A DNA stretch of 64,000 nucleotides from the IMG/VR virus record IMGVR_UViG_3300011113_000492, positions 59,082-123,081 of that record, one strand, 5' to 3'. Under the pieces are notes generated by a model. It worked only from the letters and a program-made list of their open reading frames with translations, was not told the DNA's origin and ran no database searches. Positions 1,931 to 64,000 of the stretch are shown here, in pieces. Position numbers and translations under genes: made by a program. The first letter of the stretch is position 1. Each line of letters opens with the position of its first letter. Source of the DNA: a virus.

Positions 1931-2875
1931 ATGAAAGCTAAAGAAATTATTCCAGAAGTCCGAAGAAGACCAGACATAGAAAATATTCCCTATGGTTTTG
2001 GCTCAGGGGCTCCAGTTGGTGGTGGCATTCCTGCAGGAAGAATAGAACCTACACTGGGACAAATTGGATCTCAGGCTGCACAATCTGCGGCACGAATTAA
2101 ATCAGTGAGTCCTAACCAGCCATTGCCAAGCCCAAACGTTTGGCGCAGTGGAAGAGATAATACTCCAATGAGATCTCCAGGAGATAAAGCACAAAACATA
2201 GACGATGTTGTGCTACGACAAACACATCAAGCCGCTGGACGAGGGCCTCAAGGCGGACCAATCCCAGTACCTGGTTCGACTACTGGAGAAAAGATAGCAG
2301 CCGTTGCTGGTGCAACAGGAGCAGTCGGAGGCATAGGAGCGTTGTTAACAGCACCACTGGGTACTAAACCTACAAGTGGTCAATCAACTCCGCAGGCTCC
2401 AGCAAGAGATCCAAATATGACTCAGCAGACGCAGGATAGATTGGGGATATCATTGGACAGTCGGGGACGAACAGCTTCCGGAGCCACTTCGCCACCAGCA
2501 GCCAAACCCGCTGGACCACAACAGGGCGTGGTTGGCTCAGATCTGGCCCGCCTCAGTGGTGGTGAATTTGCTAGCCGAGCCGATAGATTGAATCAGGCCA
2601 GAGTTGATGCTATATTAGGTTCTGGGTACAAAGCTGGCAGTGCTGCTGCCAACACAGCATTGAGAGATTATTACAAAGCCAACCCACCCATGTCAGACGC
2701 CCAAAGACAAGAGTTAGGACAGGAAATTTTCAATCGGAGCATGGAACGTCTTCGTCAGCAGGCTGCTGACGCCAATGTCACAGTACGACCAGCTGGCAGT
2801 GACAATTCCACCGAGCCTGTGCCCGAAGATAAAAATGCATTGACGAGATTGATGAAATTGTCGGGTCAACGTTGA
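1931..2875 (+). CDS. Pro/Ala/Gly-rich protein with capsid-targeting-like N-terminus
   Basis: A 314-residue protein of unknown function. It starts M-K-A-K-E-I-I-P-E, a short peptide with I-P-E that resembles the T4 internal-protein targeting peptide cut by prohead protease. The body is low-complexity and rich in Pro, Gly, Ala and Gln, with a glycine/alanine hydrophobic stretch around residues 118-142 that could be membrane-active. The last 110 residues are more regular and helical. A ribosome site (AAAGGATG) precedes the ATG. It lies 16 bases after the amidoligase-like gene and 3 bases before the kinase-like gene, so the three form one unit. Sequence composition resembles the gene at 58009. 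Confidence 0.7.
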   Translation: MKAKEIIPEVRRRPDIENIPYGFGSGAPVGGGIPAGRIEPTLGQIGSQAAQSAARIKSVSPNQPLPSPNVWRSGRDNTPMRSPGDKAQNIDDVVLRQTHQAAGRGPQGGPIPVPGSTTGEKIAAVAGATGAVGGIGALLTAPLGTKPTSGQSTPQAPARDPNMTQQTQDRLGISLDSRGRTASGATSPPAAKPAGPQQGVVGSDLARLSGGEFASRADRLNQARVDAILGSGYKAGSAAANTALRDYYKANPPMSDAQRQELGQEIFNRSMERLRQQAADANVTVRPAGSDNSTEPVPEDKNALTRLMKLSGQR

Positions 2876-2878
2876 AAA

Positions 2879-3544
2879 ATGATTCTAGCAGATTTTTTAA
2901 TAGAAGCAGAAGCAGGTACTAAAAATTCTGCTGCAATTTTCAGGAAGTTAAAAGCAGCCGGCTATAAAAAGCTAGGATCTGGCGCAGATTCTGTGGTATG
3001 GGCCAAAGACGACGCCAGTGTTATTAAAATTCTAATGCCTGAAGACAGCAACAGTTTAGCAGAAAAAACTTTTTTAAAATTTTATGATTTTGTGCAAGCA
3101 AACAAAGACATTGCCAATTTACCTAAATTTTTAGAATCTAGTCAGACCATGAATATAAATGGCAAAGACTATACCTTTGTGGTCATGGAAAGATTACAAC
3201 ACATACCGCGTGGCAGTATCCAGGAAGCCATGGTCTGGATACTCAGCGACTATGCTGCTAAAAAAATGCAATGGAAAGATGTATTCAAAGAATTAACTCA
3301 ACCCAACACATGGAAACATTGGGAACCTCCTCCTGCCAAAGAAAAAATAATTAATATTATAAAGAACATGAATCAGCAAGATATTCTACAATATGCTGTT
3401 TTATATTCTGTAATGACCTTGCTATACCATACCGGAAGAATAAACAAACTAGGATGGGATTTGCATACAGAAAATGTAATGCAACGACAAGATGGGACTT
3501 TAGTTATAATAGATCCTTGGTTTGCTTTAAATGATGGCATTTAA
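2879..3544 (+). CDS. protein kinase-like fold protein with capsid-targeting-like N-terminus
   Basis: A 221-residue protein. Residues 1-12 (M-I-L-A-D-F-L-I-E-A-E-A) look like a T4-type capsid-targeting peptide with an L-I-E|A cleavage site. After it come kinase signatures: a glycine loop L-G-S-G-A-D-S-V-V-W (residues 32-41), a following V-I-K that could be the ATP-binding lysine (K50), W-D-L-H-T-E-N-V-M near residue 195 (like the catalytic H-x-D-x-x-x-x-N loop) and I-I-D-P-W near 212 (like DFG). It is smaller than typical kinases (about 260-300). Inference: a small kinase packaged in the head and injected, by analogy with injected T4 Alt, which is an ADP-ribosyltransferase. Activity is not shown. 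Confidence 0.65.
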   Translation: MILADFLIEAEAGTKNSAAIFRKLKAAGYKKLGSGADSVVWAKDDASVIKILMPEDSNSLAEKTFLKFYDFVQANKDIANLPKFLESSQTMNINGKDYTFVVMERLQHIPRGSIQEAMVWILSDYAAKKMQWKDVFKELTQPNTWKHWEPPPAKEKIINIIKNMNQQDILQYAVLYSVMTLLYHTGRINKLGWDLHTENVMQRQDGTLVIIDPWFALNDGI

Positions 3545-3632: not shown

Positions 3633-4733
3633 GTGGCAACTAAAATCAGCAAGACTAAACAAAAAGAGCAGCGTATTCGCAATTTCTTGAGTAACTATAC
3701 TGTTCCTTTTGAAATGGAAGATGCTGCCATTGATTTGCGTACTATGGCGCAGAATTACCAAAATGGTATTATTCCAAATAAAGACATTGGAGATGCCGTT
3801 AATGCAATTTTAGGACCTAGTGCAATTCCTCGTTGTAGCATTGATCCTCGACAATTGGGTGTACCACAATTTGCATGGGCGCCCATGGATGATGTAGGCA
3901 TTGACCCTCGCTTTCAGCGTGATGTGGCTCCAAATCATGTGCAAAAGATTGAAGCAGATTTTCAGGCTGACATGATTATTGTGCCCTGTGCTATTAAAGA
4001 TCCTAAAACTGGCAAATATTTGCTGTGGGACGGGCACCACACGACTCGAGTCTGCGAACGTATGGGTTGGACTCATGTGCCTGTTTGGTACACTGAAGCA
4101 GACATTGACGACGAACACAGCCTGCAGGAAGCAGAACGTATCCTTATCCTTAAAGCAGGACGCAGTTTCCTTACTATTAATAAAAAGAACAAACGGCCTG
4201 TAAGTAATTACGATGCTCATATGATCAGTGTTGAGTGCGGCGAGCCCGAAGCAGTCACAGTGCAGAGAATTGTAGACGCTAACACTTGTCAAGTTAAACG
4301 TGCTAGTACAAAAGCCGGTGACATCAGTCACATTGAACACCTTTATGGTGCTTATGACCTTGTGCAGGCCAGTTCAGGCATCAAAGGCATTTACCTTGCT
4401 CGTAGTCTGAAGTTTCATCGTGACACTTGGCCTAAAGAAGAAGTGCGCGGCATTATGATGTTGGCGATGGCCCGTTTGTATCAGCAAACGGAATTGCAAA
4501 CTGGTCAGCTACTGTCCAACGAATTTGATGTTGAATTTGGAAACATCCTTAAAAAGGTCTATGGACAAAGCGAAAAAGTTCATACTCGTATCAAGGAACA
4601 ATTTGAAAATCATTTCGGCAGTCTAGGTGCTCACCCTGTTGTGGTTACCAGTGGCTTGGTGCTAACTTATTTGAAACATAATAAGAAAGGCTTTAAACTT
4701 AGTCAGCCCGAAGCTACTTATCCTGTGAAATAA
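3633..4733 (+). CDS. ParB/sulfiredoxin-fold domain protein
   Basis: A 366-residue protein read from the GTG at 3633, which lies after a sigma70 promoter; an upstream TTG at 3621 is less likely. Residues about 85-175 contain the ParB/Srx-type core: I-D-P-R-F-Q-R-D, I-V-P-C-A-I-K-D, then L-L-W-D-G-H-H-T-T-R-V-C and W-T-H-V-P-V-W. The DGHH segment is the nucleotide-binding signature of the fold. The remaining 190 residues are helical and unrecognised. No partner ParA is nearby, so a partition role is unlikely; ParB-fold proteins in phages may act as nucleases or CTP-dependent switches. A similar DGHH module recurs at the far end of the window (near 63590). Confidence 0.65.
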   Translation: MATKISKTKQKEQRIRNFLSNYTVPFEMEDAAIDLRTMAQNYQNGIIPNKDIGDAVNAILGPSAIPRCSIDPRQLGVPQFAWAPMDDVGIDPRFQRDVAPNHVQKIEADFQADMIIVPCAIKDPKTGKYLLWDGHHTTRVCERMGWTHVPVWYTEADIDDEHSLQEAERILILKAGRSFLTINKKNKRPVSNYDAHMISVECGEPEAVTVQRIVDANTCQVKRASTKAGDISHIEHLYGAYDLVQASSGIKGIYLARSLKFHRDTWPKEEVRGIMMLAMARLYQQTELQTGQLLSNEFDVEFGNILKKVYGQSEKVHTRIKEQFENHFGSLGAHPVVVTSGLVLTYLKHNKKGFKLSQPEATYPVK

Positions 4734-8586: not shown

Positions 8587-9594
8587 ATGAAAAAAATCAC
8601 AGCATTTATTAGTGCATTACTAATTTCTACATCTGCATTTAGTGCAGACATTACCGGTGCAGGTGCAACATTCCCTTTCCCAATCTATGCTAAATGGGCA
8701 GAAGCATATAAAAAGGCCACTGGCACAGGTATGAACTATCAAAGTATTGGCAGTTCAGGTGGCATTAGACAAATCAATGCTAGAACTGTGGATTTTGGTG
8801 CAACTGATGCTCCAGTTAAAGGTGAAGACCTAGACAAGCAGGGTCAAGTTCAGTTTCCTGCTATCATTGGCGGAACAGTGCCAGTGGTAAACCTAGATGG
8901 TTTTAAACCAGGCGAACTACGCATCACCGGACCAGTTATGGCCGAAGTGTTCATGGGAACTATTTCTAAATGGAATGATCCTAAACTGGTAGCATTGAAT
9001 CCAGGCAAGATTCTGCCCAACACAGAAATCACTGTGGTTCATCGTGCTGATGGTAGTGGCACAACATTTAACTGGACAGATTATCTTACTACTGTGAGTC
9101 CCGAGTGGGAGAAGCGTGTGGGTCGTGGTGCCGCAGTTAAATGGCCAGCAGCCACATCGGTAGGTGGCAAAGGCAACGAAGGTGTTGCTGCTAATGTGAA
9201 CAGAATTAAAGGTTCGATCGGTTATGTAGAGTATGCTTATGTTAAAAAGAACAACATGACATTTCTACAACTACAGAATAAAGCAGGTCGATGGGTAAGT
9301 CCAGATGACTTAACATTTGCCGCAGCAGCAGATGGTGCTGATTGGTTTAGTGTTCCAGGCATGGGATTGAGTATTGTGGATCAGCGTAATCCTAATGCGT
9401 GGCCAGTGAGTTCAGCAAGTTTCATCATCATGTACAAAGAGCCAAAGAACAAAGCTGCCAGCGATGAAGTATTAAAGTTCTTTGATTGGGCATTTAAGAA
9501 TGGTAAGAAGATGAGTGAGGAATTAGATTATGTACATTTACCTACCGTATTACAAGATCAGATTCGTCAGCGAGTTTGGAGCCAGATAAAGTAA
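8587..9594 (+). CDS. pstS: periplasmic phosphate-binding protein PstS
   Basis: 335 residues with a signal peptide (cleavage after A-F-S-A, residue 20). Phosphate-binding signatures are clear: G-A-G-A-T-F-P-F-P (residues 24-32), S-S-G-G-I-R-Q-I (56-63), D-F-G-A-T-D-A-P and H-R-A-D-G-S-G-T-T-F. Length matches bacterial PstS (about 340). It binds inorganic phosphate in the periplasm and delivers it to the host PstCAB transporter; no transporter genes are here, so it must work with host subunits. An AAGGAG site precedes the ATG. PHO-box-like repeats upstream suggest induction in phosphate-starved hosts, as is known for cyanophage pstS. Ends with its own terminator. Confidence 0.95.
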   Translation: MKKITAFISALLISTSAFSADITGAGATFPFPIYAKWAEAYKKATGTGMNYQSIGSSGGIRQINARTVDFGATDAPVKGEDLDKQGQVQFPAIIGGTVPVVNLDGFKPGELRITGPVMAEVFMGTISKWNDPKLVALNPGKILPNTEITVVHRADGSGTTFNWTDYLTTVSPEWEKRVGRGAAVKWPAATSVGGKGNEGVAANVNRIKGSIGYVEYAYVKKNNMTFLQLQNKAGRWVSPDDLTFAAAADGADWFSVPGMGLSIVDQRNPNAWPVSSASFIIMYKEPKNKAASDEVLKFFDWAFKNGKKMSEELDYVHLPTVLQDQIRQRVWSQIK

Positions 9595-49518: not shown

Positions 49519-51813
49519 ATGTTACAACCAAATCCTGAAATTGATGTTATTATCCAATCAGCAACTAATACAGCAGCACAAAAAAATCACGAGTACGTGA
49601 CTTTAGAACATTTGCTGTTTGCCATGGTAACACACGAACCATTTGCTAATATTATTGGCAATTTTGGTTGTGATGTTGACAATATGTCTAAAGAAATCGA
49701 ACAATATTTAGATAAGCAAACATATCTTGTTAACAAAGGATATGACATAGTTCCCAAGAAAACACACAGCCTAGAACGTGTTTTTAATCGTGCATTTACG
49801 CAGGTGTTGTTTAGTGGTCGACAACATTTACAAGTAATCGATTTATTCTTGAGTATTAACACTGAAGAAAAAAGTCATGCACGATACTTTATGATTAAAT
49901 TCGGCCTGGACCGAAGTCGTGTTGTGGACTACTGGAATAAAAATTATGTAGATCCTAAAGGTAAAAAGAAAGTAAGGAATGCTGTTGACAACATCCTTGA
50001 AGAATACTGCGATAATCTAAACGAATTGGCAGAAGCAGGAAAGATTGACCCAGTTATCGGCAGGGAAGCAGAGATTGATGAAATATCACATGTGCTGGCT
50101 AAAAGAAATAAAAGTAATGTGTTAATGGTGGGAGATCCTGGCGTTGGTAAAACTGCTATTGCTGAAGGTCTTGCACTTAACATTGTCACCGGAGACGTTC
50201 CAAAATACCTAGCAGATTATACAGTATATAATTTAGATATTGGTAGCTTGTTGGCTGGTAGTAAGTATCGTGGAGAATTTGAAGAGAAACTCAAAGACGT
50301 TATTAAAGCCTTAAATGCTAAAGGTAAATGTATTCTGTTTATCGATGAAGCTCATCAAATGCGAGGCGCAGGTGGCGGATCGCAGAGTAGCGTAGATTTT
50401 GCCAACATGATTAAACCTGCACTGACTAGAGGTCGGATTAAAGTCATTGCTTCAACAACTTGGGAAGAATATACTCAAAGTTTTGAAAAAGATCGCGCAT
50501 TGATGCGCCGCTTTTATAGGCTTACTGTAGAAGAGCCCACCCCAGATGTTGCAAAACAAATTCTTCGAGGTCTTAAAGATCATTTTGAAGAATTTCATAA
50601 TGGCACTATCAGTGAAGAAGCCATTGATGCCGCAGTTGATTTGAGTGTACGATATCAAACAGACAAGAGACTGCCAGACAAGGCCATTGATTTAGTGGAC
50701 ACCGCGGCAGCTAAACTAAAAATTAGCACTCTTGATTTTGTGGTTCGCAAAAGTCACATCATCGATGCTATCAGCAAATTTACAAAAATTCCAGTTGAAC
50801 AATTAGACAACGAAACAGTTAAGAACTTAGAAAGTCTTGAAGATAATATCAGATCTAATTTGTACGGCCAAGATCAGGCTGTAATAGATGTACTAGATAA
50901 AATTTATGTGAGTAGGGCTGGACTTAAAGCCTTGAATAAACCAGTGGGATCTTTCTTATTTTTAGGTCCCACTGGTACAGGTAAAACAGAGTTAGCAAAG
51001 TTGCTGGCTGAAAATCTCGGGATGAAATTATTAAGATATGATATGAGTGAATACCAAGAGCGCCATTCAGTTGCGAAATTGATCGGCGCTCCTCCCGGGT
51101 ACATAGGCTATGACGACGGAAATCTTGGCGGCGGCCTTTTAATCAGTGACGTTGAAAAGAATCCAAACTGCATCATATTGTTTGATGAAATAGAAAAAGC
51201 TCATCCAGACGTCAGTAACCTTTTGCTCAGTCTCATGGATGAAGGGATGATTACTAGTAGTAATGGAAAAAAGGCAGATTGTCGCAATGCTGTGGTCATT
51301 CTGACCAGTAATTTGGGTGCAGCAGACAATGAACGAAACAACATTGGGTTTGGGCGTAGTTTAGAACGCACAGGTGAAGATGATAAAGCTGTAAAAGATT
51401 TCTTTAAACCTGAGTTTAGAAATAGATTAGACGCTATTATTAAGTTTAACAAACTAGAACAAATCAGTATTCGTAAAATTGTAGGTAAGTTTGTACAAGA
51501 AATGAATGACTTGCTCAGTGACAAACATATTAAAGTGATCCTGTCAGAAAAAACAACTGACTATATTATCAGTCAGGGATATGATAGCAAAATGGGAGCC
51601 AGACCATTGGCTCGAAAGATCAATGAATTAATTAAAGTACCTTTGAGTAAAAAAATTCTATTTGATAATATTAATAATTGCACAGTACACGTAGACTTCA
51701 ATGATAAAATTGAATTTGATATTAAAGAAAAACAATTTGTAGTTTATCCTACAAATAATGTAATTGACGAAAATGGCTATGTTATCTTGGACCAAATTAA
51801 ATCCAACTGTTAA
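49519..51813 (+). CDS. clpA: ClpA-like AAA+ unfoldase
   Basis: 764 residues, the size of E. coli ClpA (758). N-domain with Y-V-T-L-E-H-L-L-F-A; first ATPase G-D-P-G-V-G-K-T and L-F-I-D-E-A-H; second ATPase G-P-T-G-T-G-K-T-E and L-F-D-E-I-E-K-A-H-P-D. No ClpB middle coiled coil. It has I-G-F (about residues 609-611) where ClpA carries its ClpP-docking I-G-L/F tripeptide, so it may feed host ClpP. ClpA is a main unfoldase for ssrA-tagged proteins, and this phage also encodes tmRNA. Late leaderless promoter. Confidence 0.9.
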   Translation: MLQPNPEIDVIIQSATNTAAQKNHEYVTLEHLLFAMVTHEPFANIIGNFGCDVDNMSKEIEQYLDKQTYLVNKGYDIVPKKTHSLERVFNRAFTQVLFSGRQHLQVIDLFLSINTEEKSHARYFMIKFGLDRSRVVDYWNKNYVDPKGKKKVRNAVDNILEEYCDNLNELAEAGKIDPVIGREAEIDEISHVLAKRNKSNVLMVGDPGVGKTAIAEGLALNIVTGDVPKYLADYTVYNLDIGSLLAGSKYRGEFEEKLKDVIKALNAKGKCILFIDEAHQMRGAGGGSQSSVDFANMIKPALTRGRIKVIASTTWEEYTQSFEKDRALMRRFYRLTVEEPTPDVAKQILRGLKDHFEEFHNGTISEEAIDAAVDLSVRYQTDKRLPDKAIDLVDTAAAKLKISTLDFVVRKSHIIDAISKFTKIPVEQLDNETVKNLESLEDNIRSNLYGQDQAVIDVLDKIYVSRAGLKALNKPVGSFLFLGPTGTGKTELAKLLAENLGMKLLRYDMSEYQERHSVAKLIGAPPGYIGYDDGNLGGGLLISDVEKNPNCIILFDEIEKAHPDVSNLLLSLMDEGMITSSNGKKADCRNAVVILTSNLGAADNERNNIGFGRSLERTGEDDKAVKDFFKPEFRNRLDAIIKFNKLEQISIRKIVGKFVQEMNDLLSDKHIKVILSEKTTDYIISQGYDSKMGARPLARKINELIKVPLSKKILFDNINNCTVHVDFNDKIEFDIKEKQFVVYPTNNVIDENGYVILDQIKSNC

Positions 51814-54187: not shown

Positions 54188-56851
54188 ATGTACGCTCACG
54201 AATTATACGAACAAAATAAACCCAGAGTTGTTGTAACATATCCTGGAAGATTTCAGCCTTTTCACCAAGGACACGCCGGTGTTTTTGCACAATTACAAAA
54301 GAAATTTGGAAGGGACAGTGTTTATATTCTAACTAGCAACGACACTAGTTCAGCAAAAAGTCCGTTTAATTTCTCAGACAAATATCAGCTAATGACCGCA
54401 GCTGGAGTGCCGGGAGATAAAATAATCGAAACTAATCAGATGTACAAGTTACCTGATTCCATTGATGCTGCTAACACTATATTCATAACTGCGGTGGGCG
54501 CACCAGATGCTGATAGATTAAATCCCGACACATATACTAAAAGAGATCAAAAAGACAAAGAAGGCAATATTACTAAGCCTGCAGGCAGTCCCAGTTACTA
54601 TAAAACTTGGGGAGGGGCCGAAACACCAGTGACCGCAGATCAGCACGGTTATGTTATTATTATTCCAGAAATACACAAAGAAGTAACTATTAAAGGTCAA
54701 AAATATGATGTAAGTCACGGTACAGAATGTCGTAACTTATGGAATTCTATTAGAAATGATGCTAAGGCTAGAACAGAGTTTCTGACTCAGATGTATGCTA
54801 GACCCAGTCAAGAACTAGCTGCTATCTTTGATAAGATACCTCAGACTACCTCAGAAGACGTCAGTGCTGACAATCAAACCAGTACCAGTCCTATTCATGG
54901 AGGACAAGTAACGCAAGGCGTGGCGGAAAGTGACCATCAATCTAGTTCTAAAACTGGCATTTATCAGACTGATGTTCTCGGAGCAAAAGCTTATCATAGT
55001 AAATGTTTAGAAAAAGGCTGCGACTGGGAATCTCGCAGATATGATCGTATCAAACAGGCACAAGACGCTGCTAAAAAACACGCTCAAACACACATCAAGT
55101 CAGGTGTGGCGGAAGGTGATCTACAAGAAATACAACGAACCAAAGGTGACAAAGAAGGACTAAGCACCAAAGGTCAGAACTGGGGCAAAGAAACTTTAGC
55201 AAAGATCAAGATGCTGCCAGGTAGTCAAAGGTTTGGTTATACTGCAAGTGATGCCGGACGTGCCGCCTCTTTCTTGACAGGTGCTGATACTATCATTGAA
55301 CTATTTGATGTAAAACATCCACAAGACGGTTTGAGAAAAGCAGGCTTTTTGTCATTGCGTTCAGCTCCGTGGTTCCCTATCAAAAACAGCTATCAAGTCG
55401 CCAACGTTGGATTAGACAGTGAATATCGCGGCACAGGCTTAGGACAAAGTCTCTACGGTATAGCAATGAAATTGTTGGGCATGACCATTGTGGCAGATGA
55501 TACACAAACCCCACAGGCTCGTAGTTCATGGCTTAGACTGTCACAGGTGCCAGGGGTAGCAATCAATGGCTACACATCTGTGTTTTCCGAAGACTGGGCA
55601 TTGAGAAACAATCGTAATGAAATCTATGACGACAGTGCCAAACGACTTATCAGTGCGCTATTGAAGGCAAGTGGACAAGAGATTGGCAAAAACTCAACAT
55701 TTGTATATGTAAGTTTCCCAGTGGGTGCCAACGCTGACCAAAATGAATTACAGGCTCTACAAAAAGGCATTACTATTTACAGTGCTCGACATCCCGAAGA
55801 TGGTGGTACTCAAAATGGGTTGTACGCTAGATGGAGTGGCCAAGTTAAGGAGCAAGGTCTGGCAGAAGATGCTGCCGGAGTTGGTGTTGTAGCTAAAAAC
55901 AAAAAGATGGCACGTGACCCAAGATACAGTATGAGTATTACTAAGGACGTAAAACCGTCGACTCCTAAAAATATGTTGCGAGCTTTTAGATTGTCTGAAG
56001 ATTCGGCAGTCAGTGAAGAGCAGATTATGAATATGGTAAAAAGTTTCTTACCATTGGCCATGAAAGAACTTAATCTAGAAAAGCTGCCAAAAATTGTTAT
56101 AAAGAAACATATCGAAACACACGATGGACAGGCTACCTTTGGCCGTTTTGTCAATGAAGAAGAAAAAATATATCTTGGCATTGCCGATAGGCACCCTGTG
56201 GATATACTGAGAACACTGGCGCACGAACTGGTACACTTCAAACAACACGAGCAAGGCAGAATGGAGCCTGACTCAGGCGACACTGGTAGCCCCATTGAAA
56301 ATGAAGCCAATGCTGTTGCTGGTGTGCTGATGCGGTATTTTAATAAAAAATATCCCAACGCAGTCAAGTCTTCAGCAGTATCCTTAGATGAAAGTCTTTT
56401 TGAGCGATATCAGCAGTTCAAAGAAAACGGCGATGAAGCAGACGAAATTAAAAAACAAAAAAATCTAATACCTTTTCCCAAAGGCACAGTCAAAGTAGAT
56501 GTCAGTGATGTCTACGATTGGTATAAAATAGGGCAGGAAATCAGCGACCTAGACGATGCTGATCCCGCAGACTTTGGCAAAGGTCCCCCACAAACAGTTA
56601 TGGCATTTGGCAGCGAACCCGAAGAACATCGATATCTAAAAGATCTAAAAAGATTGGGCTTAAAAACGCATGACATAGATGAAAACTTTGCTGATGGTCG
56701 CAATCCCCAGGACAAAGGCGACAGTAAAAGATACAATGTACCAACTAAAGGTAAAATATCTACTCTGAGAAAGATTGCTAAACAAGGCGGCCGTCGAGGA
56801 CAATTAGCCCATTGGATGGCCAATATGCGTAGTGGTAAAAACAAAAAATGA
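54188..56851 (+). CDS. modular polyprotein: nucleotidyltransferase, zinc module, acetyltransferase-like, metallopeptidase
   Basis: 887 residues. Residues 1-8 (M-Y-A-H-E-L-Y-E) look like a capsid-targeting peptide. Module 1 (about 12-215): nucleotidyltransferase with Y-P-G-R-F-Q-P-F-H-Q-G-H. Then junction G-V-A-E-S (54917), a small Cys/His module (about 256-305), junction G-V-A-E-G (55103) and a GNAT-like module (V-A-N-V-G-L-D-S-E-Y-R-G-T-G-L-G, about 410-430). Junction G-L-A-E-D (55856) precedes a zinc peptidase with L-A-H-E-L-V-H-F-K-Q-H (HExxH, about residue 680). The basic end, H-W-M-A-N-M-R-S-G, recurs in T4-like phage virion proteins. Inference: packaged and cut into separate enzymes. 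Confidence 0.7.
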   Translation: MYAHELYEQNKPRVVVTYPGRFQPFHQGHAGVFAQLQKKFGRDSVYILTSNDTSSAKSPFNFSDKYQLMTAAGVPGDKIIETNQMYKLPDSIDAANTIFITAVGAPDADRLNPDTYTKRDQKDKEGNITKPAGSPSYYKTWGGAETPVTADQHGYVIIIPEIHKEVTIKGQKYDVSHGTECRNLWNSIRNDAKARTEFLTQMYARPSQELAAIFDKIPQTTSEDVSADNQTSTSPIHGGQVTQGVAESDHQSSSKTGIYQTDVLGAKAYHSKCLEKGCDWESRRYDRIKQAQDAAKKHAQTHIKSGVAEGDLQEIQRTKGDKEGLSTKGQNWGKETLAKIKMLPGSQRFGYTASDAGRAASFLTGADTIIELFDVKHPQDGLRKAGFLSLRSAPWFPIKNSYQVANVGLDSEYRGTGLGQSLYGIAMKLLGMTIVADDTQTPQARSSWLRLSQVPGVAINGYTSVFSEDWALRNNRNEIYDDSAKRLISALLKASGQEIGKNSTFVYVSFPVGANADQNELQALQKGITIYSARHPEDGGTQNGLYARWSGQVKEQGLAEDAAGVGVVAKNKKMARDPRYSMSITKDVKPSTPKNMLRAFRLSEDSAVSEEQIMNMVKSFLPLAMKELNLEKLPKIVIKKHIETHDGQATFGRFVNEEEKIYLGIADRHPVDILRTLAHELVHFKQHEQGRMEPDSGDTGSPIENEANAVAGVLMRYFNKKYPNAVKSSAVSLDESLFERYQQFKENGDEADEIKKQKNLIPFPKGTVKVDVSDVYDWYKIGQEISDLDDADPADFGKGPPQTVMAFGSEPEEHRYLKDLKRLGLKTHDIDENFADGRNPQDKGDSKRYNVPTKGKISTLRKIAKQGGRRGQLAHWMANMRSGKNKK

Positions 56852-57126
56852 GACAAATTGAACTGACCTGCGAAGTACGCTGCTTGGATGAAGCAGAAAA
56901 TCAATCATATCGACTATACATCGACGATAATTTAATAACCGAAAGAACGTGGATTTGGCCGTGGCATTTTCGTATAAAAGAACATGTATATCTAGATATA
57001 GAGCCCGGCGAACATACAATAAGAGTAGAACCAGTAGACAAAAAGTTTACTAAATTTTATGTAAATGCCCTGCATTTAGATGGTTACCCCACTGGCAAAG
57101 TCAGCGGAGTATTTAAAGCTATCTAA
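56848..57126 (+). CDS. small beta-sandwich protein, unknown
   Basis: 92 residues, ATG overlapping the previous stop by 4 bases. Strand pattern with Y-R-L-Y-I-D-D-N-L-I-T-E-R and I-E-P-G-E-H-T-I-R-V. Seen as a compact beta protein in phage structural regions; no function known. Confidence 0.6.
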   Translation: MRQIELTCEVRCLDEAENQSYRLYIDDNLITERTWIWPWHFRIKEHVYLDIEPGEHTIRVEPVDKKFTKFYVNALHLDGYPTGKVSGVFKAI

Positions 57127-57155
57127 TAAATATAGTAATATTACGGATTAAAACT

Positions 57156-58007
57156 ATGAAAAGTGAACATTTTTTAAAAGAAGGCTTTGTGGAAGACGCA
57201 TCAGAGGTACATGCTGATCACGAAGTACAAATGGCTAGGTCAGATTTATTTCATGCTGCGGAAGATGCGCTGGTATTACATAAATTATTAAGAAATATCA
57301 GTGAACAGCAGGGACTAGAAGGGTGGGTAGCTGCTAAGATTACCCTAGCCAGTGACTATTTAAAAACTGTTCGTGAATACATAGAGTATGAATTAATGAC
57401 TGCGGCCAGCGAACAACCCATGCTGCCAATAGCAGAAGATCGGCAAGGTGTGGCGGAAGGCTCGGATGAAAAACAATCATTTAAAGTATCTTACCATAAT
57501 CCTAAAACAAGACAAGACAAAGTAGTAACAATTAAAGCCCCTAATAAAGACGAAGTATTGGATTATTGTGCCAATAAAGGTTATAAAAATGTACACGTTG
57601 AGCAGGGTGTCTCAGAAGATGATTCAGCGGTACAATCGTTTTTAAGTAAAGGCGGAAAGATTCAACAACTGCCATATAAAAAGCCTCGCAAAGCAGATAA
57701 AACCGATTACGGCAGTAAACACATTGGCGGTAGCGGTGATAAGATGAAAGCCAGTCGTACAGGTACTGCTGCTAAAACACAGGGTAACAAGGTAGCAGGA
57801 ATGTCAGAAGGGTCGGCCTGTAACCACACCATGGAAGGTAAAAGTTGTCCAATGCATGGATTAAAGGAATGCCCTGGTTATAAATCTAGTATAGAAGAAA
57901 CCACCGCTGGTAGTGTTGCTGGTGTAGTCAACCCCACACCAAAAAACAAAGCCAAAGTTGGTACATTGTTTGGTGGAACATACAAGCAGAAAAAAACAAA
58001 GGCATAA
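57156..58007 (+). CDS. modular protein with capsid-targeting-like N-terminus and GVAEG junction
   Basis: 283 residues. Starts M-K-S-E-H-F-L-K-E-G, a targeting-like peptide with L-K-E|G. A helical domain (15-90) is followed by Q-G-V-A-E-G (57447) and a small module (F-K-V-S-Y-H-N-P-K-T) that resembles the module after the first GVAEG of the last gene. Further V-S-E-D and M-S-E-G sites precede a C-x2-H/C-P-M-H zinc-like motif (about residue 230). Late-type AATAAATA at 57125-57132. Confidence 0.6.
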   Translation: MKSEHFLKEGFVEDASEVHADHEVQMARSDLFHAAEDALVLHKLLRNISEQQGLEGWVAAKITLASDYLKTVREYIEYELMTAASEQPMLPIAEDRQGVAEGSDEKQSFKVSYHNPKTRQDKVVTIKAPNKDEVLDYCANKGYKNVHVEQGVSEDDSAVQSFLSKGGKIQQLPYKKPRKADKTDYGSKHIGGSGDKMKASRTGTAAKTQGNKVAGMSEGSACNHTMEGKSCPMHGLKECPGYKSSIEETTAGSVAGVVNPTPKNKAKVGTLFGGTYKQKKTKA

Positions 58008-58008
58008 T

Positions 58009-59397
58009 ATGTCAGACATGCGCCGCCTAATAGAAACTGTTGATTCTGGTACTGCTAAAACAAAAGTCGACGAAGCTTTACCATTGATAGGTGCAGGCAT
58101 TGCAGCAGGTGCAAGATTAGCTGCACCTTATGTGGCAAGAGCAGGTAGTGCTATAATGAAAGGTCTAAGAGGAACTCCAAAGCCCCCAACTACGCCTCCA
58201 ACAGTTACCCCCTCTGGAGTAACTCCAACTATTCCTACTAATGTAAATGTTCCGGCTGTAGTAAGAAATAGGCCTGGACAGCCTGTACCGGGATCTACTC
58301 CCCCTGCAAGTACTCCTGCACCCACAACAACTACCCCACCCGCGGCACAATCCACAGTGGCTAAACCAAGAATAGAAAGACGTCCTGGCGAATCTGTAGA
58401 GGATGCTATCAAAAGAGCGCAAGGTGAAAAATCAGCTCCTACAGCAAGACCAGCCGAACCTGCACCTGCTACTACATCTGCACCCACACCCGCGTCACAA
58501 ACAGGACAAGGCCCAGCAGTATGGCGTGATCCCAGAACTGGTGAAGTTAGCAGTACACCCCCCGGAGGCGGGAGTCCGCCAACTGTCAGGGATCCTTTTG
58601 CAAATCCAACATTTCCTTTTAGAGATACGACGAGAGCTGAAAGAGCTGCCGTGGGCAGGGCTCGAAGTCAAGAAAGACAAGCAGGGGAAATAATTCCAAA
58701 GCCAATTGGAGGGAAACCAGGCGATGTTCTTAAACAAAGAAGAAAATTAATATCTCCTGTGGCACTTGATACACAAACTCAACCTATTAGGGGAGGTGGT
58801 GGCGGAGGAGGTGGTGGCAGCGATCAATCTGGTGACGATGCAAGCCCTTCGGCTCCTAGTCCACAAACTAACACTGATACATCTCAGGCTATAGATTGGG
58901 ATAAAGTGGTATGGGTCGATCAATCAGCAGCCCAATCAGTATCACCAACGATTAGCAACGTGGCGCCCCAATCATCGGCACCAATTAGAACAGAACCACC
59001 AGCCCAATCAGCACCAGCCAGAGAACCAGCCAAAGTAGAACCAGCCAGAGAACCAGCCAGAGAACCAGCCAGAGAACCAGCCAGAGAACCAGCCAAAGTA
59101 GAACCAACTAAAGTAGAACCAGTCAAAACACCGTCTGTCGGTACAGGTGGTGGTCAAGGATCAGGCAGCGGAACTGGAACAGGAAGCGGACAAGGATCAG
59201 GCAGTGGTTCTGGATCGGGCACTGGATCAGGCTCTGGCAGTGGTTCAGGATCAGGCTCTGGCAGTGGTGCGGGAGAAGGACCTATAGATAGATATCAATG
59301 GCTTAAACAACAAGGAGTGACCGGGGTGCGAGAATATCGCAGTACAAAAAAATTAATGCGAGAATTTAGCAGACATTTAAACAGGATCCAACGATGA
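58009..59397 (+). CDS. low-complexity protein with capsid-targeting-like N-terminus
   Basis: 462 residues from the ATG at 58009. M-S-D-M-R-R-L-I-E-T-V is a targeting-like start with L-I-E|T. Residues 24-55 form an Ala/Gly hydrophobic segment. Then come Pro/Thr/Ala-rich linkers, a Gly run, tandem A-R-E-P units and a long (G-S)n tract, ending in an ordered basic tail (Y-Q-W-L-K-Q-Q-G-V, R-E-F-S-R-H-L). Probably a long flexible virion protein. The 3' end overlaps the next start by 4 bases. Confidence 0.65.
   Translation: MSDMRRLIETVDSGTAKTKVDEALPLIGAGIAAGARLAAPYVARAGSAIMKGLRGTPKPPTTPPTVTPSGVTPTIPTNVNVPAVVRNRPGQPVPGSTPPASTPAPTTTTPPAAQSTVAKPRIERRPGESVEDAIKRAQGEKSAPTARPAEPAPATTSAPTPASQTGQGPAVWRDPRTGEVSSTPPGGGSPPTVRDPFANPTFPFRDTTRAERAAVGRARSQERQAGEIIPKPIGGKPGDVLKQRRKLISPVALDTQTQPIRGGGGGGGGGSDQSGDDASPSAPSPQTNTDTSQAIDWDKVVWVDQSAAQSVSPTISNVAPQSSAPIRTEPPAQSAPAREPAKVEPAREPAREPAREPAREPAKVEPTKVEPVKTPSVGTGGGQGSGSGTGTGSGQGSGSGSGSGTGSGSGSGSGSGSGSGAGEGPIDRYQWLKQQGVTGVREYRSTKKLMREFSRHLNRIQR
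59037..59100 (+). repeat. 12-bp tandem coding repeat (A-R-E-P)
   Basis: Units of CCAGCCAGAGAA in tandem, with variants CCAGCCAAAGTA. Copy number could change by slippage or recombination. Confidence 0.8.
59150..59280 (+). repeat. Gly-Ser/Gly-Thr coding repeat tract
   Basis: About 130 bases of imperfect GGATCAGGC / AGTGGTTCT units encoding alternating Gly and Ser/Thr. Confidence 0.75.
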
Positions 59398-62288
59398 GCG
59401 ACATTAAAAAGTTATTAGAAACCATGGATCGCATGTCTGCAGCGGAACGTAAACCCGCAGGTCCAAAGTTTCCTGGTTATTGGAAAGGCACAGATCCTGC
59501 CAGCAAAGCCAAAGATAAAATGGTGGGCGGTGCAGAAGAAAGTATTATAAAAGATCTTCATAGTACTGCCAAAGAACGAGTCACTGAGTGGCAACTTCAA
59601 GAAAAATATGCAAGGTTCAAAGAACAAGACAGCAAAGCATACACAGGCATAGATCCAATTGTTCGACAAAGAATGGGCATGCCACCAGCTACAGCAGATG
59701 AAATTCAATCTTATTTTAACAAAAATCCACCAGCAATAAAAGCAGGGGATGGGTATCTTCATAGTAATACTGCTGTAAGTCTTGATCCGAAAAAAGATTT
59801 TGGACCCGATGCCGTTAGGTCTGGCGGACAAATGGATGTAATAAGTGCGGCAGCAGGTGCGGCAAAAAAAGCAGCAGGAATAAATGAACCTTCCGTGAAT
59901 GTAACTGACCGTCCAGTACAACCAGTTTCATCACAAGCTCAGCCACCTGCGTCAGCAGTGGCACCAGCAGCTAGACCTCAGCCACCTGTGTCAGCATCAT
60001 CTGCAACTTCCAGTTCCAATAATTCAACCACTGACAATTTCGTTAAACCCCCACCGGGGTTAATTTTGACCCCTGAACCTAATAAAAATAATGGAGCATC
60101 TGCAACTTCATCAGGACCCAATACTCAGGGGCAAGGAATGTTGAGTGGTGGTGGTAGCGCAACTTGGGCAACTAGTCCGTTAAATCCTGCCAATCGTCGA
60201 GATAGTTCATCGGCACCAGCAGTGGCGCCGTTTGGATCTGGCCCCCCTGACACTAGATTATTAATAAATCCACCTCAAGGAAATGCAGCATTAAATCCTG
60301 CCAAAAACACAGATAGTGCAACTAACATCCCTGGTGGTCAATCAGCTGGCGGGCCTGGAGTAGTACCTCCAGCCGCAAGACCCTCGTCAACAGCCACTCC
60401 TTATCGAGGCAATCAAGGCGCAAGAGAAATTCAAGCAGTAAATCCATCTATTAAAGATGTAAATAAAATTCAAGCAGGACAACGATTAAAATTGCCCGAC
60501 AGCGACAAAGATTATGTTGTACAAAAAGGCGACACTTTAGATAAAATTGGAAAAATGTATCGCAGTGGGGAAATAGGCGGGCGAGTAGTGGGAGGAGAAG
60601 GTCCAACATCATCCTCAGATTCCAGACCTCAACCTGCTGCTCCTGCTGCCGCAGCTCAACCTGCTGCTCCTGCGGCTAGACCTCAACCTGCTGCATCGGG
60701 GCCACAACCTGCTGCTCCTACAGCCAGACCAGCACCTGCTGCATCGGGGCCACAACCTGCTGCTCCTGCGGCTGCGACTCAACCCAATGCTGGAACATCG
60801 CAGACAAATTTAACTCATCCACCGGGCACTCAAGTCCAATTAAAAATCCATAATGTAAAAGATCGAGGCAAATTAGTAAATGGTGGAAAACCAATGGATA
60901 TAACTGTAATGAAAGGCGCCGACGGTAAATGGTATAATCCAAAAGGTCAACCAGTTACTTTTAATAAACCAAGCGACTTAGACCATCTAGAACGAATGCC
61001 AGCACTACAACTTCCGCGAATAACATACGATAATCCAAGGCCCCCCGGTGTGCCTGCAGGTTCAATGTCTACGCCAAATTTTTTAAAAGCTCCATTGGGC
61101 AGTTTCCAAAATTACAGAAAAGGCAGTGACGGCGAATGGTACAGAGAAGATGGTACTAGGGTAGACAGATTAGACCTGATACAGAATTTAGAAAAAAATG
61201 CAAAGACTCCGCAAGCTCCATCAGCCAGACCACAACCTGCTGCCCCAAGAGAGCCTGCTGGTCAAACCAGTAAAGTTCCTGAGGCATCTAAATCTTCCGA
61301 CGCAATGGCATCTTATGCTGCAAGGGGAGGTAGAGTTTATGCAGCAGACTTTAACAATCCCAGTGGCTTAGGCTGGGACGGTAAAGGAAAATACACTAGT
61401 TATAAGACTCCCGAGGAAGGAGTTAATGCTACCAAAGATTTAGTTGCACGATACTTAACCGATCAAACTCCATATATTAAAGGTTCTCCTACTCCGGATC
61501 AAGTGGTCAGTACATGGGTGTCGGGGGGTAAAACACCGGCTGACAAAATTCAAGGTGGAAGATATCTTCAATCAGTTAAAGATGAGCTGGCCGCGGCTGG
61601 TGTTAAATTAGATGCCAAGGGAAGAATACCTTATTCACAGGCCGCAAGAGATGCTATTACACGAGCCATTGTTCGTCACGAGACTGCCCCTAAGCATATG
61701 GAAAAATTTGCACCTTTTCTAACTGCGCCAAAAGATGCAAAAGGGTCGATTGAAGAATCGAACAAAGAAGATGAAAAAATTGCAGGACGATACGATCCCG
61801 ACGACTTTGACCTTATGGTTAAACGTTTAGGTCAACGAGCTCGAGAACAAGATCGTAAGCACGGGCCTGTTGATATTGCCGCATTAGCAAAAAGATTACG
61901 TGAATTAGAAAAAAGACATCAAACTAATGAAGTAGAAGATCCTGCGGTGAACATGCAAGATCCCGATGTACAACAGACTAGTCAAACCAGTCCGCAACAA
62001 GATCCTGCGGCTGTTAGACAGCAACAATTAGATCAAACAGTGGACATGGCCACTGCCAAAGGCACTATGACTGGTTTAAAAAATGTACTAGGACCCAAAG
62101 TAGACACAAACGCATTGGCCAGTGCTGTTACAAAAATCAGTGACGGTAAACCTTTATCTGGCCCTGAGTCGATGTCAATGAGTGCTCTTACACCTTTGAT
62201 AAGTAAAGCAGCAGAGACTCCACAAACTGCAATGGCATTAAAAACAGCATTAAGTAATGCTGGTATGTTAGCCAAGCAAGGAAAATAA
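59394..62288 (+). CDS. large LysM-containing virion protein candidate
   Basis: 964 residues. Starts M-S-D-I-K-K-L-L-E-T-M, a targeting-like peptide with L-L-E|T. Pro/Ala/Gln-rich linkers separate short domains. Near residue 345, N-P-S-I-K-D-V-N-K-I-Q-A-G-Q-R-L-K-L-P then Y-V-V-Q-K-G-D-T-L-D-K-I form the two halves of LysM in swapped order. Two related small domains end in K-W-Y-N-P-K-G and E-W-Y-R-E-D-G (about 500-600). Residues about 650-770 have N-P-S-G-L-G-W, E-E-G-V-N-A-T and Y-L-Q-S-V, a pattern seen in phage wall-associated proteins. Probably binds or acts on peptidoglycan during entry. PA-rich repeats lie at 60640-60790. Confidence 0.6.
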   Translation: MSDIKKLLETMDRMSAAERKPAGPKFPGYWKGTDPASKAKDKMVGGAEESIIKDLHSTAKERVTEWQLQEKYARFKEQDSKAYTGIDPIVRQRMGMPPATADEIQSYFNKNPPAIKAGDGYLHSNTAVSLDPKKDFGPDAVRSGGQMDVISAAAGAAKKAAGINEPSVNVTDRPVQPVSSQAQPPASAVAPAARPQPPVSASSATSSSNNSTTDNFVKPPPGLILTPEPNKNNGASATSSGPNTQGQGMLSGGGSATWATSPLNPANRRDSSSAPAVAPFGSGPPDTRLLINPPQGNAALNPAKNTDSATNIPGGQSAGGPGVVPPAARPSSTATPYRGNQGAREIQAVNPSIKDVNKIQAGQRLKLPDSDKDYVVQKGDTLDKIGKMYRSGEIGGRVVGGEGPTSSSDSRPQPAAPAAAAQPAAPAARPQPAASGPQPAAPTARPAPAASGPQPAAPAAATQPNAGTSQTNLTHPPGTQVQLKIHNVKDRGKLVNGGKPMDITVMKGADGKWYNPKGQPVTFNKPSDLDHLERMPALQLPRITYDNPRPPGVPAGSMSTPNFLKAPLGSFQNYRKGSDGEWYREDGTRVDRLDLIQNLEKNAKTPQAPSARPQPAAPREPAGQTSKVPEASKSSDAMASYAARGGRVYAADFNNPSGLGWDGKGKYTSYKTPEEGVNATKDLVARYLTDQTPYIKGSPTPDQVVSTWVSGGKTPADKIQGGRYLQSVKDELAAAGVKLDAKGRIPYSQAARDAITRAIVRHETAPKHMEKFAPFLTAPKDAKGSIEESNKEDEKIAGRYDPDDFDLMVKRLGQRAREQDRKHGPVDIAALAKRLRELEKRHQTNEVEDPAVNMQDPDVQQTSQTSPQQDPAAVRQQQLDQTVDMATAKGTMTGLKNVLGPKVDTNALASAVTKISDGKPLSGPESMSMSALTPLISKAAETPQTAMALKTALSNAGMLAKQGK

Positions 62289-62289
62289 T

Positions 62290-64000
62290 ATGAATTTGTT
62301 TGATATATTTGAATCCGGCGATCAAGAATTAGATGAAAATTTGCGTAAATGGTTCAAAGACAAATGGGTGAGATTCGGACCGGATGGCGAGATTCGAGGT
62401 GACTGTGCCAGAGGTGATGACAGCGAAGGCAAGCCAAAGTGCTTACCACAAAGTAAAGCACATGCGTTAGGCAAAAAAGGTCGTGCTAGTGCTGCTGCTC
62501 GTAAACGTAGAGAAGATCCCGATCCAGAACGCAGAGGTCCTGCTAAGAATGTTGCTACTAAGAAAAAGAGTAATGAAGGTGTGGCGGAAGGCTCCGGGGG
62601 GCAAAAGTTTATTGTTACCTATAACAATAGCCTATCGAATGATTCGTATACTGTTATGGTGTCAGCTGATGACGAATATGATGCTAAAGACAAAGTTAGT
62701 CATGCACTAGGCATGGGTGACAGAATTACTGATGTCAAATCTGCTCGTGGCACTGAGCCCACAGACCGTGAATATAAAGTGTTTGTTGATCCCAGAACTA
62801 GTCAAAAAAGATCAGGTATCTATGACAGGCAACAAGGGTTGGCGGAGGATGAATTAGACGAAGCATGTTGGAAAGGTTATCATAAGGAAGGTATGAAAAC
62901 CATGTTTGGCAAACGTTATCCAAACTGTGTTAAAAATACAAATGAAGAACAAACAGTAAAAGAAGACACTAACATACCTTTTAATACTTGTCCTGGTTGT
63001 GGTGGTGATATAGTACACGAATCAGAACTACAAGAAAAACAAGATGCTTGTTATCACAAAGTAAAAAGTCGTTACAAAGTTTGGCCCAGTGCATATGCTA
63101 GCGGTGCATTAGTTCAGTGCCGTAAAAAAGGTGCTAGTAACTGGGGTAATAAATCCGAAGGTGTGGCGGAAGGTTCCGATATCCCTCAATGGAGAGTTGA
63201 GCAGTCAGATGCTACTGGTCGTTATTATGTAGTGAGTGGTTATAGTGACAAATCTCGCAAAGTATGGAAAAGTAAACTAGGTGCTATAGACTTTGTGAAA
63301 AAAGCAGACGCGGAAGCAAAGGCACAAGAATTAAATCAAGGTGTGGCGGAAGGCAAAATCAAACTAAGCACAGACCCTAACTGGTACGGAGCCGAAGTAG
63401 GTAATTATAAATCTAACAGTCCTGTCGTCAACATTCCAGCAAATCAATTAGTAGGATTCGAACCTGATGACAAAATGAATCAACCTGCTAGTAAAGCCAA
63501 TGTTGAAAAGATTGTTGTCGGCCTAAAACAAGGTGCTAAACTTCCTCCTTTGCTGGTTCGCAAATACAAAAACGGATATCAAGTATTAGATGGGCACCAT
63601 AGATTTTGGGCATACAAATTATTAGGAGTCAAATCAATACCAGCACAGGTTGTTCCTGATAGTGATATTGAAGAAAAAGGTCAGCAAGGTGTGGCGGAGG
63701 CAGAGTTAGACGAAGCATGTTGGAAAGGTTACCACAAAGAAGGTATGAAAACTATGTTTGGTAAAAAATATCCAAACTGTGTAAAGAATACTAACGAAGA
63801 ACAAGAACAACATAGCGAAAAATGTCCACATTGCGGCGGCGAAATGGTTAGTGAAGAACTAATGAATGAAAAGAAAGATGCTTGCTACTATAAAGTAAAG
63901 AGTCGTTATAAAGTATGGCCTAGTGCTTATGCAAGTGGTGCATTAGTTCAATGTCGTAAGAAGGGTGCTAGTAACTGGGGTACCAAGAGTGAAGGTGTGG
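62290..64000 (+). CDS. modular GVAE-junction protein, 3' end outside the window
   Basis: 570 codons are visible from the ATG at 62290, two bases after the previous stop; open at 64000. Start M-N-L-F-D-I-F-E-S is targeting-like (I-F-E|S). Modules are parted by junctions: G-V-A-E-G 62578, G-L-A-E-D 62836, G-V-A-E-G 63160 and 63340, G-V-A-E-A 63688, and one cut by the window end at 63994. Module 1 is basic (K-W-V-R-F-G-P-D-G, K-C-L-P); module 3 holds D-E-A-C-W-K-G-Y, C-P-G-C-G-G and S-R-Y-K-V-W-P-S-A-Y; module 5 is ParB-like with L-D-G-H-H-R-F-W-A; module 6 repeats module 3. Confidence 0.75.
   Translation, partial: MNLFDIFESGDQELDENLRKWFKDKWVRFGPDGEIRGDCARGDDSEGKPKCLPQSKAHALGKKGRASAAARKRREDPDPERRGPAKNVATKKKSNEGVAEGSGGQKFIVTYNNSLSNDSYTVMVSADDEYDAKDKVSHALGMGDRITDVKSARGTEPTDREYKVFVDPRTSQKRSGIYDRQQGLAEDELDEACWKGYHKEGMKTMFGKRYPNCVKNTNEEQTVKEDTNIPFNTCPGCGGDIVHESELQEKQDACYHKVKSRYKVWPSAYASGALVQCRKKGASNWGNKSEGVAEGSDIPQWRVEQSDATGRYYVVSGYSDKSRKVWKSKLGAIDFVKKADAEAKAQELNQGVAEGKIKLSTDPNWYGAEVGNYKSNSPVVNIPANQLVGFEPDDKMNQPASKANVEKIVVGLKQGAKLPPLLVRKYKNGYQVLDGHHRFWAYKLLGVKSIPAQVVPDSDIEEKGQQGVAEAELDEACWKGYHKEGMKTMFGKKYPNCVKNTNEEQEQHSEKCPHCGGEMVSEELMNEKKDACYYKVKSRYKVWPSAYASGALVQCRKKGASNWGTKSEGV
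62848..63159 (+). repeat. duplicated module, copy 1 (copy 2 at 63700-63993)
   Basis: Both copies encode D-E-A-C-W-K-G-Y-H-K-E-G-M, a C-P-x-C-G-G knuckle and a S-R-Y-K-V-W-P-S-A-Y block; much of the DNA is identical with mostly third-base changes. Confidence 0.85.

Follow-up and report, generated by a model that had tools for sequence, protein, structure and literature searches.

What does a short GVAE sequence, repeated along three proteins of an uncultured phage, stand for: the preference of a protease, or a property of the DNA that encodes it? The question is raised by the last 64,000 bases (bases 59082-123081, hereafter the window) of a 123,081-bp virus record, so that the end of the window is also the end of the contig. 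The record is a fragment that carries mainly replication and metabolic genes and no head genes. A first-pass annotation had seen at least ten GVAE or GLAE junctions between recognisable domains and had read them as sites of a T4-type prohead protease, cutting an enzyme cargo made as polyproteins and packaged in the head.

Sites and modules in the window

A translated scan of both strands of the whole 64-kb window finds nine complete GVAE/GLAE sites exactly where they had been placed (54917, 55103, 55856, 57447, 62578, 62836, 63160, 63340 and 63688), all of them inside three plus-strand ORFs (54188-56851, 57156-58007 and 62290-end), and no further G[VLI]AE in any frame. The tenth site, at 63994, is likewise present, the contig end cutting it off after 7 of its 12 bases. 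When the residues of the three proteins were shuffled, a mean of 0.10 sites was obtained, with a maximum of two in 2000 shuffles, against the nine observed. The features are collected in Table 1.

Table 1. Junction copies, ORFs and duplicated modules in the window (window coordinates; a slash follows the Glu of each hydrophobic-x-Glu)
Feature	Position	Strand	Remarks
Junction copy 1	54915..54929	+	AAGGCGTGGCGGAAA, two mismatches to core, GVAE
Junction copy 2	55101..55115	+	13-base motif GGTGTGGCGGAAG exact, GVAE/G
Junction copy 3	55854..55868	+	AAGGTCTGGCAGAAG, diverged, GLAE/D
Junction copy 4	57445..57459	+	exact core AAGGTGTGGCGGAAG, GVAE/G
Junction copy 5	62576..62590	+	exact core, GVAE/G
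Junction copy 6	62834..62848	+	AAGGGTTGGCGGAGG, GLAE/D
Junction copy 7	63158..63172	+	exact core, GVAE/G
Junction copy 8	63338..63352	+	exact core, GVAE/G
Junction copy 9	63686..63700	+	AAGGTGTGGCGGAGG, GVAE/A
Junction copy 10	63992..64000	+	AAGGTGTGG, ends with contig
Modular ORF, 887 aa	54188..56851	+	three GVAE/GLAE junctions; CTS-like N-terminus MYAHELYE/Q
Modular ORF, 283 aa	57156..58007	+	one GVAE junction; CTS-like N-terminus MKSEHFLKE/G
Low-complexity Pro/Ala/Gly-rich ORF	58009..59397	+	CTS-like start MSDMRRLIE/T; no GVAE
ORF, 964 aa	59394..62288	+	CTS-like start MSDIKKLLE/T; LysM domain; no GVAE
Modular ORF, 570 aa, runs off contig	62290..64000	+	N-terminus MNLFDIFE/S; five complete junctions and a cut sixth
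Module (ELDEACWKGYHKEGMK... CPGCGG ... DUF5872)	62848..63159	+	between junctions 6 and 7
Second copy of DUF5872 module	63700..63993	+	between junctions 9 and 10

The first modular ORF holds cytidylyltransferase-like, small Cys/His, GNAT-like and HExxH peptidase-like modules, and the last one ParB_N, zinc-ribbon and DUF5872 modules. The domains that had been named from the letters alone fared unevenly against Pfam: the nucleotidyltransferase is supported by a CTP_transf_like match (E 7e-8), while the match of the HExxH peptidase is weak (E about 0.01), ParB_N falls just below its cut-off (25.3 vs 26.3) and the acetyltransferase-like domain, despite a visible YRGTGLG motif, receives no GNAT call in the window. 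GNAT domains are called in other motif proteins (Acetyltransf_7 in five members, Acetyltransf_1 in four), and DUF5872 is above its cut-off in the window (28.2 vs 27.5). Domains found among 80 motif proteins comprise CTP_transf_like, GNAT, ParB_N, GP88, DUF5872, DUF6321 and deaminase. The two copies of the DUF5872 module share 79% DNA identity and are both flanked by junction copies.

Elsewhere in the window, the phage encodes a subunit of a phosphate transporter (PHROG 5385, E 5e-65) at 8587-9594 and, at 2879-3544, a protein with a weak but significant match (E 7e-11) to the phage protein kinase family phrog_15752, which is described as inhibiting host transcription. A ClpA/ClpB-type double AAA+ ATPase with Clp_N lies at 49519-51813, the modular block starting a few kb downstream of it. 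The strongly low-complexity protein encoded at 58009-59397 contains AREPAREP and GSGTGSGSG repeats.

A repeat conserved as DNA

The account given in the first-pass annotation did not include the conservation of the repeat at the DNA level. The sites of the window share the codons CAA-GGT-GTG-GCG-GAA-GGC or come near them; GCG makes up 7% of the Ala codons in window genes, yet is the one used at the repeat, and the core spans codon boundaries. A 17-base version of the repeat, searched in uncultured viral contigs, matches at least 120 stretches; all 163 of the matches listed are in the GVAE frame, and 33 of the 120 loci among them carry more than one copy. Two synonymous 17-mers made of commoner codons match 39 and 49 stretches, with multiple copies in 0 and 1 of these, respectively. 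In the loci chosen in this way, all 275 copies of GGTGTGGCGGAR lie within ORFs and in one reading frame.

As this sample had been picked by DNA, a second one of 80 loci was gathered by protein similarity of one module, the motif being left out of the query. GVAE is the commonest tetrapeptide there, with 100 occurrences against 2-7 for its permutations. The Ala codon is GCG in 85 of the 110 G[VLI]AE sites, where 9 are expected, and 66 of the 110 read exactly GGTGTGGCGGAA, against about 0.6 expected from codon use. The codon preceding the motif is almost always xAA (Gln, Glu or Lys) and the one following it begins with G (mostly Gly, Ala, Glu, Asp or Val). Half-codons are thus kept on both flanks whatever residue is encoded, and the conserved unit is therefore the 15-bp AAGGTGTGGCGGAAG, whose one-base variants are common (93 vs 284 exact copies). 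That the repeat is a DNA junction is, in our judgement, very likely.

All junction-bearing sequences are uncultured metagenome contigs. No match to the junction beyond chance was found in 50,697 records of isolated phages, among which the junction protein of locus L017 has no relative at all, and a literature search for GVAEG returned nothing relevant, the junction not being described in the literature examined. An origin in host genomes was considered and dropped: an 18-mer, searched in 257 billion bases from cellular genomes, gives 26 hits, all single and scattered, and these are attributed to chance because none is multi-copy and their frames are mixed. Two structural readings of the core were set aside as well. 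It could be written as a G-quadruplex (GG-TGT-GG-C-GG-AA-GG), and this was discarded because the commonest variants, GTG>GTA and GCG>GCA, destroy the quadruplex and are as frequent as harmless ones; as for a hairpin or inverted-repeat site, the core shows no inverted repeat and no stable fold (z-scores -1.0 to 0.9).

The repeat also coincides with the points at which related sequences part. When 340 distinct sites were compared in pairs, a side being called similar if at least 75% alike, 123 pairs (a count that includes related events, not all of them independent) were similar on a single side of the motif, their other sides being unrelated, and two were similar on both; pseudo-sites shifted by 45-75 nt gave 1-9 one-sided and 35-55 two-sided pairs. 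Identity usually stops 2-4 nt before and 1-3 nt after the 12-mer, and in many pairs 60-75 identical bases are followed by unrelated sequence. BLAST alignments end on the motif 86 times where 3.8 are expected, and 22 times against 2.8 in the motif-independent set. Since DNA identity stops at the motif edges, the repeat is a junction for in-frame module swaps, of which the pairs of loci L116/L079, L121/L019 and L080/L085 provide direct examples. In the window, the first 96 residues of the protein starting at 62290 are near-identical to those of a 1566-aa protein of locus L171, and beyond the first GVAE the two proteins carry different modules. Beside exact junctions, the L171 protein has GVEE and DVAE in comparable positions, which look like copies of the junction that have decayed.

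Duplications are seen too: in L108 and in L068, one module stands behind two motif copies of a single contig. From one junction to the next, modules measure 75 aa in the median and mostly 48 to 226 aa (about 50-230), and in each of the records searched all junction copies point the same way. Single-linkage clustering put 266 of the 634 modules in one group, so that neighbour counts at the family level are a rough guide only. Contig ends, considered as a possible sign of ongoing shuffling, are overall not enriched at the motif, and this line was abandoned. The repetition is thus set at the DNA level and marks crossovers between modules, and protease specificity alone is insufficient to explain it.

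Residue constraint and head-protein signatures

The encoded residues are nonetheless not free to vary alike. Across 428 sites that differ from the DNA core by no more than two bases, Glu is kept in 426, while its codon changes synonymously (GAA>GAG) 22 times. The Val position holds Val, Met, Leu or Ile in 427 of the 428 sites (Val itself in 400), its changes being to Met (18), Leu (6), Ile (3) and Ala (1), whereas the Gly position changes freely to Asp, Ser or Ala, and the Ala position to Ser, Glu, Thr, Val and others. With Glu and the hydrophobic residue two places before it kept and the other two residues free, the asymmetry is one at the amino-acid level and matches hydrophobic-x-Glu (h-x-E). 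In T4, the gp21 protease cuts after L/I-x-E, as at the capsid-targeting sequence (CTS; PMC9026906), and Alt is cut at ITE-6 and LTE-619 (PMC5694885).

The proposed fit to the maturation protease is partial: the h-x-E pattern resembles the gp21 rule, while T4 gp21 reportedly wants L or I at P3, where most junction sites have V, and the P1' residue, Gly, Ala or Ser in 265 of 340 sites, is Asp or Glu in 50 of them (about 15%). In 50 of 58 cases, the DUF5872 module has an h-x-E at one set position before it, the other positions being variable, and shared descent could account for part of this. No GVAE is present in the gp21, gp22 and gp23 homologues examined. On balance, we consider it reasonably likely that the proteins are cut at GVAE.

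The N-termini of the motif proteins point in the same direction. An h-x-E lies at residues 5-14 in 26 of 35 motif proteins, compared with 136 of 482 control ORFs from those loci (P 8e-8), and no excess is seen with reversed or Asp/Lys controls; Ser, Ala or Gly follows in 17 of the 26. These starts, which include MKPSEILTE/A, MRAQEFITE/G, MKTTDFLTE/L and MKTYQFITE/T, resemble the MKTYQEFIAE/A start of T4 IPII/IPIII. In L174 and L196, the CTS-like N-terminus leads straight into a module that elsewhere stands behind an internal h-x-E. All five ORFs between 54188 and 64000 begin in a CTS-like manner, including the two without GVAE (58009-59397 and 59394-62288), which on the strength of these starts probably encode further internal head proteins. 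Two more CTS-like ORFs without GVAE, at window positions 1931-2875 and record bases 3779-4546 (L129), start with MKAKEIIPE/V and MKVNEVITE/A, respectively, and may encode additional ones.

A search for the prohead-protease gene, which the first-pass annotation had proposed, succeeded in relatives: in nine of 20 long records, all from phages that bear the motif or a module, a strong Gp23 match is accompanied by a nearby Peptidase_S77 (gp21). The present record, which is a fragment, shows no match to Gp23 or S77, and the built-in control genomes gave none either. The capsid protein of one relative has its nearest counterparts in jumbo phages, among them Pseudomonas PA5oct and Vibrio 2.275. In L214 and L219, the major capsid gene gp23 is directly followed by ORFs with HHIIPRSLGG...N...H, which look HNH homing-endonuclease-like by eye. 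As for the packaged cargo that had been envisaged, the CTS-like N-termini and the gp21 and gp23 of relatives argue for it, packaging itself being a step that they suggest; it is thus likely that the junction proteins are internal, ejected head proteins of the T4 type.

A model, its alternatives and known systems

The observed DNA conservation, in-frame use, crossovers, h-x-E constraint, CTS-like N-termini and gp21/gp23 of relatives can be brought together in a model, which we favour with some reserve, in which internal head proteins are packaged as polyproteins whose modules are shuffled at a DNA junction, the junction also encoding the site of cleavage. The phages would exchange and duplicate modules at the 15-bp junction, in one frame, within and between genomes; as the junction encodes an h-x-E of the kind cut by gp21, each swapped block would carry its own cut site. 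The N-terminal capsid-targeting peptide would bring the proteins into the prohead core, where cuts made at the CTS and at every GVAE as the head matures would free separate small proteins. These would be ejected along with the DNA and would act against the host, perhaps against its defences as T4 IP1-IP3 do. Crossovers could arise through a dedicated enzyme or, as the phage replicates, through annealing of single strands or a switch of template over the 15 bp; of these, short-homology annealing is favoured. A common junction would be useful because many partners carry it already, and sites drifting from the consensus would for the same reason stop recombining. Points against the model include the length of 15 bp, which is on the low side for ordinary homologous recombination, and the fact that no enzyme acting on the core turned up. 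A broader reading, to which we give an even chance, sees here a phage counterpart of exon shuffling, with one 15-bp junction serving many large T4-like phages, in-frame insertion combined with a protease site that releases the module, and a common pool of ejected effector modules; a dedicated enzyme may act on the junction.

Conservation across codon boundaries, crossovers that stop at the repeat and variable P1' residues would all be expected of a mere recombination junction or mobile linker, GVAE being incidental in a tolerant inter-domain loop and the fusions remaining uncut. This is rather doubtful given that Glu changes nonsynonymously in only 2 of 428 sites against 22 synonymous changes, that all changes of Val but one are hydrophobic while Gly and Ala vary freely, and that CTS-like N-termini carry the same h-x-E. 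The opposite reading, that of the first-pass annotation, takes GVAE as a sequence preferred by the protease and the likeness in DNA as codon bias. It accommodates the h-x-E constraint, the gp21 homologues of relatives and the CTS-like N-termini, but GCG is used in 77% of cases at the motif and makes up 7-8% of Ala codons, flanking half-codons are kept regardless of the residue, and DNA breakpoints at module boundaries are sharp; as a complete explanation it is already contradicted, and we regard it as very improbable.

A dedicated site-specific recombinase or homing-type endonuclease acting on the 15-bp core, with in-frame cassettes in the manner of an integron, would account for breakpoints restricted to a fixed core and for the single orientation per record. 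We nevertheless think such an enzyme quite unlikely, the core having neither inverted repeats nor a fold and tolerating frequent one-base variants, and no candidate having turned up, in a search that was not systematic. Shuffling could also be mimicked by metagenome assembly chimaeras joined at the repeat, as the contig of the window and that of G016 both terminate within or at a copy of the motif. Modules are however duplicated inside single contigs (L108, L068 and the window), contig ends in general are not enriched at the motif, and the shared core of 15 bp is shorter than the k-mers expected of assemblers, and chimaeras are very unlikely as the explanation.

If the model of shuffled head polyproteins is correct, large T4-like phages would rearrange their ejected arsenal in blocks whose joint is both recombination junction and protease site, which would explain how a multi-domain cargo changes without breakage of the reading frame. 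It would also give a testable rule by which the ejected effectors of uncultured phages can be traced, namely to locate the junction and read the modules that flank it. Many of the modules lack a known function, and the example of T4 IP1-IP3, which are anti-defence proteins (PMC12373910), suggests that they could be of that kind as well.

The modules extend beyond the phages with the junction: those of the DUF5872/CWKGY type are present in 365 phage records, for the most part from cyanophages. Cyanophage modules were considered as carriers of the junction; in the two cyanophage proteins examined, the modules are connected by different linkers that lack the motif, often with an h-x-E just before the DUF5872 domain. 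Also related are the mobile elements of T4-type phages. Internal-protein genes are reportedly swapped among T-even phages, a finding credited to Repoila et al. 1994, and Arbiol et al. 2010 are said to have described mobile regulatory cassettes (promoter plus stem-loop) of T4-type phages. There too, variable cargo genes are exchanged at short conserved sequences; the units are however whole genes, exchanged at gene starts or between genes, whereas the joint described here is one between modules, in frame. Unlike the regulatory cassettes, the junction has no stable stem-loop, and all its copies lie inside ORFs and in one frame.

Smug et al. 2023 (PMC10684548) likewise describe, as mosaicism of phage proteins, a recent shuffling of fragments within proteins; no shared DNA junction came up when their paper was searched by terms. 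The polyvalent proteins of phages and conjugative elements, with 2-15 domains and a predicted delivery with DNA, also combine several conflict- or DNA-related domains per chain, here ParB-like, peptidase-like and acetyltransferase-like, and cassette recombination has been raised as a possibility for them (Iyer et al. 2017, PMC5512222). In the passages searched of that paper, neither a fixed DNA junction nor a linker with a protease site appears between domains, and the present proteins differ from polyvalent proteins in being T4-like, with a CTS. A likeness is also seen to the CTS-bearing, gp21-processed proteins IPI, IPII, IPIII and Alt of T4, whose N-terminal peptide, too, ends in h-x-E with a small residue following. 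Relatives carry Gp23 and Peptidase_S77, head genes of the T4 kind, and packaging, processing and ejection would be the expected fate of the junction proteins as well. The internal proteins of T4, however, are single, short and cut near their ends, whereas those described here have many modules per ORF and h-x-E sites within.
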